The notes under the pieces: generated by a model
Databases searched by the model: none
Told to the model about the DNA's origin: nothing
Seen by the model: only the letters and a program-made list of their open reading frames with translations
Program-made: the position numbers and the translations under genes
Assembly: GCF_004103715.1 (NCBI RefSeq)
Contig: NZ_CP035282.1
Coordinates: forward strand, 1,292,673-1,356,672
Direction: 5' to 3'
From: Acidilutibacter cellobiosedens
GTDB lineage: Bacteria > Bacillota > Clostridia > Tissierellales > Acidilutibacteraceae
DNA length: 64,000 bases
Shown: piece by piece, positions 43,970 through 44,631 of the stretch
How positions within the stretch are numbered: the stretch's first letter is position 1
How the letters are laid out: each line of letters begins with the position of its first letter

Positions 43970-43998
43970 TTGACATTTTTGGAGATTAGTGATATCAT
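43970..43998 (+). promoter_or_regulatory. Sigma-A promoter of the manganese riboswitch-mntP unit
   Basis: Perfect TTGACA (43970-43975), 17-base spacer, TATCAT (43993-43998). Transcription would start near 44005, just before the aptamer. Confidence 0.75.
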
Positions 43999-44014
43999 AA
44001 ATAAACAATTTGAA

Positions 44015-44120
44015 AATACTCATGAGGGAGTAGTTAGCGCATAAAATGTGTGCGTGATAAGTCAACATGCTGACTGATAACAGTCTGGCTTGTCTTAAAT
44101 AACGAGACTCATGTATAACT
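44015..44120 (+). ncRNA. yybP-ykoY manganese riboswitch
   Basis: The aptamer shows the conserved core: GAGGGAGTAG (44024-44033) at the 5' side, GTCAACATG and CTGGCTTGTC in the middle, and AACGAGACTC at the 3' side. P1 forms from CATGAG (44021-44026) and CTCATG (44108-44113). Part of that 3' strand (CATGTATA, 44110-44117) can instead pair with TATACATG (44129-44136), a plausible switching element. yybP-ykoY RNAs sense Mn2+ and turn on exporters, matching the mntP gene downstream. Confidence 0.85.
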
Positions 44121-44164
44121 TTAACGGCTATACATGGTCTTGTGGGATTCTTTTTATTTATAAG

Positions 44165-44206
44165 CTCAGGTATTGCCGTAAGGATTATACCTGAGTTTTT
44201 CTTTTT
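44165..44206 (+). terminator. Riboswitch-controlled terminator
   Basis: CTCAGGTAT (44165-44173) pairs with ATACCTGAG (44187-44195), followed by TTTTTCTTTTT. It lies between the aptamer and mntP, so manganese binding should prevent it and let transcription proceed. Confidence 0.85.
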
Positions 44207-44235
44207 GTAAATACAAAATAACGGGAGGTTACAAA

Positions 44236-44631
44236 ATGAATTTATCAGAACTGTTTCTAATTGCTATCGGACTATCCATGGATGCATTTGCTGTATCAAT
44301 TTGTATTGGCTTATCTCTACAAACAGTCAGTCTGGAAAAGTCGCTAATTGTAGGATTGTATTTTGGTACGTTTCAAGCTGTAATGCCATTAATCGTCTAC
44401 TTCTTTGGTTTTCAGCCGGCAGATAAAATTGCAGCTTTCGATCACCGGATTGATTTTATTCTTCTTGGATTTATCGGCATTATCACATTATTATTTTCAA
44501 TGGCAGGCGTGAAAATAGGTAATGTATTTGGGTCGAAGTATAAATCAGGAGCTGAGCTTATTGGAGGTATTATTCTCATACTTATGGTATTAAAAATCAT
44601 ACTTGAACACACAGGAATACTTGTCATATAG
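44236..44631 (+). CDS. mntP: Manganese efflux protein MntP, internally shortened
   Basis: MntP exports manganese. This 131-residue protein starts normally (IGLSMDAFAVSICIGLSL with Asp16, one of the acidic residues known to be needed) and ends normally (FSMAGVKIGNVFGSKYKSGAELIGGIILILMVLKIILEHTG). Usual length is 180-190 residues with six membrane helices. Right after LLGFIG the sequence jumps to IITLLFSMAG, so about 55-60 residues are missing, including the acidic loop and the helix with the second conserved Asp (SIDALAVG type). The frame is kept. The joint falls at a short FIG motif that occurs at both ends of the missing block in normal MntP, suggesting a deletion between short repeats. Activity is doubtful. 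Confidence 0.85.
   Translation: MNLSELFLIAIGLSMDAFAVSICIGLSLQTVSLEKSLIVGLYFGTFQAVMPLIVYFFGFQPADKIAAFDHRIDFILLGFIGIITLLFSMAGVKIGNVFGSKYKSGAELIGGIILILMVLKIILEHTGILVI

Follow-up and report, generated by a model that had tools for sequence, protein, structure and literature searches.

An internally deleted mntP behind a conserved manganese riboswitch in Acidilutibacter cellobiosedens, a probable case of early exporter gene decay

The closest published case that we found is BP3410 of Bordetella pertussis, a Mn exporter under Mn-riboswitch control that is reported to be silenced by an in-frame change within the gene (PMC8546581); it belongs to the calcium:cation antiporter family and its change is a reverting 30-nt duplication, whereas the change at the locus analysed here would be an irreversible deletion. 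In S. Typhi, YiiP, one of two redundant Mn exporters, was probably lost via a two-residue deletion (PMC11176087); YiiP, however, is a CDF-family protein under other regulation, and MntP is the exporter kept there. The GDT1/UPF0016 family likewise includes a Mn exporter behind this riboswitch class: its member MneA makes an E. coli mntP mutant less sensitive to Mn, and of the 333 bacterial UPF0016 genes screened, 328 are reported behind such an element (PMC7380456). One gene of this family is present in A. cellobiosedens, although it belongs to another Pfam family and lies at another locus than mntP. With regard to the RNA sensor, published work describes a mechanism in which Mn2+ stabilises the P1.1 helix, preventing termination (PMC6754395; PMC11087558), and a UCA motif in L3 whose A contacts Mn2+ (PMC6754395). 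A limited literature search returned no published internally deleted or pseudogene mntP.

Here we analyse the mntP gene of Acidilutibacter cellobiosedens (GCF_004103715.1), whose 3.74-Mb genome consists of a single contig. All coordinates (Table 1) refer to the window, a stretch of 64,000 nt corresponding to positions 1,292,673-1,356,672 of NZ_CP035282.1 on the forward strand. MntP function is taken here to need both conserved Asp residues; our limited literature search found no published demonstration of this requirement. The 131-aa protein encoded in the window matches PF02659 (Mntp) with 68.3 bits, compared with a gathering score of 24.4, in two stretches, aligned in the genome search to positions 2-53 and 109-152 of the 152-position profile, and its gene is the sole PF02659 gene of the genome. 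In the alignment it retains the first Asp motif, GLSMDAFAV, and the C-terminal part, likenesses to MntP that are joined by a Mn-type riboswitch word in front, found also in 27/118 relatives. In contrast, it misses the equivalog cut-off of NCBIfam NF008546 (52.8 bits vs 214), falls short of the ~185-210 residues and six helices of functional MntP, and departs from the arrangement of one Asp motif per half, the second Asp being deleted. As judged from these comparisons, the gene is an mntP by descent whose product has neither the pair of Asp residues, the second being lost, nor the length of a functional MntP.

Table 1. Positions and strands of the features of the mntP locus, and of the second riboswitch of the same genome, with the basis of each assignment
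Feature	Position	Strand	Basis or remark
sigma-70-like promoter TTGACA-17-TATCAT, TG before -10	43970-43998	+	11/12 consensus bases
Mn2+ riboswitch aptamer, yybP-ykoY type	44014-44115	+	covariance model, pair covariation
P1.1, AUGAG with CUCAU	44022-44026 with 44108-44112	+	
aptamer L1 core, GGAGUAG; CGAGA	44027-44033; 44103-44107	+	
aptamer L3 core, UCAACA	44062-44067	+	metal-sensing A placed at 44064 by inference from PMC6754395
alternative hairpin taking up P1.1 3' strand	44103-44142	+	MFE and centroid folds; putative switching role
terminator-like hairpin and TTTTTCTTTTT, T run	44165-44206	+	folds; like hairpins in L068, L082
ribosome-binding site GGGAGG	44223-44228	+	sequence
mntP, internally deleted	44236-44631	+	131 codons and stop, frame open
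G54V	44395-44397	+	G in 118/118 relatives
F61P	44416-44418	+	F in 113/118 relatives
W71R	44446-44448	+	W in 115/118 relatives
A73D	44452-44454	+	A in 111/118 relatives
deletion joint TTT ATC GGC (F79-I80-G81), where the third helix runs into the fifth	44470-44478	+	alignment, joint-site comparison
G118V	44587-44589	+	G in 117/118 relatives
second Mn riboswitch, own genome	L003:1501-1637 = G000:C1:3130116-3130252	-	RF00080 35.5 bits

An earlier note on this stretch had described an MntP without ~55-60 in-frame residues, the second conserved Asp among them, with a joint at a FIG motif, and had proposed a comparison with relatives. Both observations hold: the 118 distinct relative proteins read from the fetched loci, none of which is another with a different start, are all full-length at 183-211 residues, and the alignment places the joint in the FIG triplet. 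About 60 codons are gone in frame at this FIG/IG joint, leaving 60 residues fewer than in L061, the closest MntP among the 118 (75% identity over 129 columns, 74% over aligned residues), and 61 fewer than in L068 (68% over aligned residues), and in 14 near relatives 57-79 residues separate the parts matching residues 79 and 80 of the short protein. The deleted block holds most of the motif ATSIDALA, the Asp of which is kept by 118/118 relatives. We rejected the possibility that the missing block sits elsewhere in the genome, given the sole PF02659 gene and the lack of any match, up to E 10, to L061 residues 82-139 anywhere in A. cellobiosedens.

Helices are numbered here according to what we take to be the usual description of the family. 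At the third-helix joint site, the relatives have I in 106/118 and then G in 118/118; at the fifth-helix site, I in 118/118 and then G in 108/118. The run of identical DNA between the two sites averages 4.7 bases across the 118 relatives, reaching at least 6 in 31 of them and 10 at the longest, compared with a mean of 1.5 bases for random position pairs, of which 0.4% reach at least 6; this identity arises in part because both sites code Ile-Gly, a contribution that the random control leaves in. If such short repeats had recombined, or slippage had occurred between them, exactly this in-frame joint would result.

The searches that supplied the relatives covered 60 genomes (the own genome plus 59 others from its order), 249 genomes from the order, 391 drawn evenly from the class, and GTDB contigs; the own genome is included in every genome count. 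Matches to mntP were found in 17/60, 101/249 and 210/391 genomes (E<=1e-8 for the last), as well as in 455 stretches of GTDB contigs, of which 80 were kept; a search of the family Acidilutibacteraceae gave the A. cellobiosedens genome only. Two-ended matches pair query residues ~1-83 and ~77-129 with a gap between, and some matches extend beyond the joint to ~residue 101 on the third-helix side. Among the matches listed, best first, for relatives, order, class and GTDB contigs, there was no other near-full-length, single-stretch match to the 131-aa protein, on which ground a lineage of short MntPs was rejected. Short open frames with mntP matches occur at G084:C1:965729-965980 and G596:C211:5406-5666 (91 and 124 aa), and are possibly broken copies or contig ends. 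The L061 protein (L061:5001-5567) comes from a Treponema MAG and the closest leader, L068, from a Lachnospiraceae MAG; both are nearer than those found in the own order, and horizontal transfer of mntP is possible.

Upstream of the gene, promoter, aptamer, switching stem and terminator had all been taken as intact. In favour of the promoter reading, L068, L108 and L137 carry TTGACA at the corresponding position (L082 has TTGACC), although the promoter scan alone is weak, the region's 9 promoter-like sites comparing with 6.3 (sd 2.0) in shuffles. An exact-motif scan of the 330 bases in front of mntP detects the word GGGAGTAG in the 27 relatives, most of which also have TCAACA and AGAC, similarly spaced. 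We used 25 of the 27 to build a covariance model, with the A. cellobiosedens leader left out (hereafter R1); it scores this leader at 85.3 bits (E 5e-20) over 44020-44115. When pairing was assessed in 24 sequences, 84.9% of cells paired, compared with 75.1% in shuffled and 32-44% in slid versions, and both sides had changed in 20 of 29 pairs, where shuffles averaged 13.1; the shuffles leave relatedness in, and the structure was that of the A. cellobiosedens leader itself, giving it an advantage over the slid ones. P1.1 was paired in 96.7% of cells, with 3/5 of its pairs changed on both sides. The leader keeps each of the 22 columns that do not vary among the 25 relatives, 12 of them lying in the words used to pick the relatives and 10 being independent. 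The leader also folds better than its shuffles (z -5.5, 0/200), and, among the 27 leaders, that of L068 shares most bases with its last 230 (185 identical), with 173 for L082. The proposed yybP-ykoY aptamer is thus confirmed by R1 and covariation, despite being missed by RF00080, and by its motifs and pairing the leader reads as a Mn2+-type aptamer with the L1 and L3 cores, the sensing A and P1.1 all present.

The alternative hairpin appears in the folds and would act as the switching stem, and L082 has counterparts of both this and the terminator-like hairpin, L068 of the latter. The consensus terminator scan gave 0 sites in the mntP leader, in contrast to the folds, because it admits loops of up to 8 bases, compared with 13 here. 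By analogy with the described mechanism, we infer Mn2+-controlled antitermination at A. cellobiosedens mntP.

The coding sequence was also said to have kept its frame and both ends well, and here the open frame stands, but five strongly conserved residues are replaced. The alignment has 54 columns with at least 90% identity across the 118 relatives; of these the short protein retains 36 and has 13 deleted and 5 substituted, 41 columns lying outside the deletion. Leave-one-out counts over the retained columns gave 5/41, 4/30 and 2/22 violations at the 90, 95 and 98% levels, compared with relatives' means of 1.1, 0.32 and 0.07. The relatives' maxima were 3 at >=95% and 1 at >=98%, no relative of the 118 equalling the short protein, whereas at the 90% level three relatives from one divergent clade (L018-L020) exceed it with 10 violations each. 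Because of these counts, the constraint on what remains of the protein appears to be relaxed.

In a codon model of 17 sequences, omega on the branch of the short gene was 0.045, not raised with respect to the global value of 0.096 (2dlnL 2.7), and omega = 1 was rejected (2dlnL 39), the values being rough since synonymous sites are saturated. These rough estimates suggest that purifying selection held over most of the branch and that the decay phase, if real, was short; therefore, either the loss came late on the branch, which fits the earlier description of the deletion as recent, or the short form is still selected. In neutral simulations from the mntP sequence with point changes only, five of the 41 sites were hit after ~24 changes, and no new stop codon arose in 48.5% of the 4000 runs. 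As about half of the neutral runs stay stop-free, the open frame is no argument against decay.

The genome holds a second Mn riboswitch, the RF00080 match of which (E 2.8e-8) lies under the 45-bit cut-off. R1 recovers it at 28.7 bits (E 3.5e-5, or 0.002 over the whole genome), and a model of the mntP-type leaders matching an RF00080 element too ties the mntP leader and the second element together. A third R1 match, of 20.9 bits (E 0.2), falls within a 263-aa ORF and was regarded as a chance hit. About 50 bases downstream of the second riboswitch is a 372-aa ORF with two GDT1 domains, carrying EMGDKTQ and EFGDKTQ, i.e. both EXGDKT motifs; one CDF-family gene is also found in the genome. The GDT1-family gene probably takes over export as a backup, and the loss of mntP was probably tolerable because this second, intact Mn exporter gene has its own sensor.

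We consider it likely that a repeat-mediated deletion removed an essential part of MntP, that the exporter is dead and that its remnant is decaying behind a conserved riboswitch. The starting state would have been a normal riboswitch-controlled Mn2+ exporter gene, from which a ~180-base deletion between short direct repeats, formed by the Ile and Gly codons in helices 3 and 5, would have removed the last part of helix 3, the central loop, helix 4 together with the second Asp, and the first part of helix 5. With promoter, aptamer and terminator apparently intact, P1.1 should still be stabilised at high Mn2+, blocking termination and permitting synthesis of a 131-residue membrane protein, which is most likely unable to export Mn2+. 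An inactivating deletion between short repeats was one of the two readings of the earlier note, and the DNA matches at the joint sites, together with the changes at near-invariant residues, lend it support. Counting against inactivation are the open frame, the sound ribosome-binding site and leader, the low branch omega and the violations in L018-L020.

The other reading, a minimal working exporter with one Asp per subunit in a larger oligomer, would see in the protein a collapsed two-repeat transporter that has adapted through W71R/A73D and both Gly-to-Val changes. The open frame, the retained GLSMDAFAV, the conserved leader and the low omega speak in its favour, but the remnant is no clean half, helix 3 being joined to helix 5, and W71R and A73D place charges near the start of helix 3. 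No other one-stretch, near-full-query match was present among the matches listed. AlphaFold gave the short protein a pLDDT of 73.8 and pTM of 0.60 (five models 47.9-73.8), weaker than the 82.2 and 0.78 (64.3-82.2) of the full-length L061 control with the same 16 rows, a contrast which is itself weak because these rows describe the full-length form. Helices were modelled at 3-27, 33-56, 63-66 and 70-126 in the short protein, and at 3-27, 33-60, 62-90, 105-115, 117-128 and 133-186 in L061. A PDB sequence search yielded no match at E<=0.01, and the best structure comparisons remained at the uninformative level of helical bundles for both the full-length model (Z 9.9 with ENT1, rmsd 4.2, 154 aligned) and the short one (Z 7.2, rmsd 3.5, 93 aligned). 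The models do not suggest a well-packed new fold, and the minimal oligomeric exporter is disfavoured as an improbable, unsupported reading.

An adaptive loss, in which inactivation of the exporter raises cell Mn and was selected, as in B. pertussis, has a direct precedent in the 30-nt inhibitory duplication of BP3410 behind a working Mn riboswitch (PMC8546581), but the change here is a deletion and not a reversible duplication. As the GDT1 exporter gene remains and the change is a deletion, drift with redundancy is the simpler account, and we give selection for the loss little credence. Also improbable is an assembly or sequencing error masking a full-length mntP, since, although the family offers one genome only, that genome is a single contig, the identical runs at the joint sites of relatives (<=10 bases) are too short for an assembly collapse, and the conserved-site substitutions would not follow from an assembly slip.

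If the likely course, deletion followed by decay, is correct, the locus shows gene decay at an apparently early stage, with the regulatory RNA still conserved and the regulated protein without an essential part. Together with the riboswitch-GDT1 pair, it illustrates Mn exporter turnover behind one kind of RNA sensor, and the short mntP constitutes a natural construct for asking whether MntP requires both halves.

The leader also bears on the detection of Mn riboswitches. It shares with yybP-ykoY RNAs the GGAGUAG, UCAACA and CGAGA cores, the arrangement of the P1.1 helix and a terminator-like hairpin downstream, but belongs to a AGGGAGUAG subtype that RF00080 did not report here when 251 bases were searched with matches accepted to E 10, nor in the own-genome search. 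Rfam as a whole, whether at the gathering cut-offs or at E<=10, revealed no Mn riboswitch at this locus, and the miRNA and sRNA matches listed instead were taken as chance. Among nine motif-sharing relatives (L068, L108, L076, L135, L059, L021, L036, L037 and L122), RF00080 matched 0/9 at E<=0.01, with a partial match of 17.6 bits in L037 (181-base search). As relatives with the same motif are also missed and R1 matches the leader, the miss lies in the model and not in the sequence: RF00080 is largely blind to this subtype of mntP aptamer, and overlooks a mntP-type form of the Mn riboswitch. Four of these nine loci match RF02617, 'Streptococcus sRNA 10', below its cut-off, over the aptamer and hairpin, and RF02617 could in fact represent the streptococcal version of this riboswitch.
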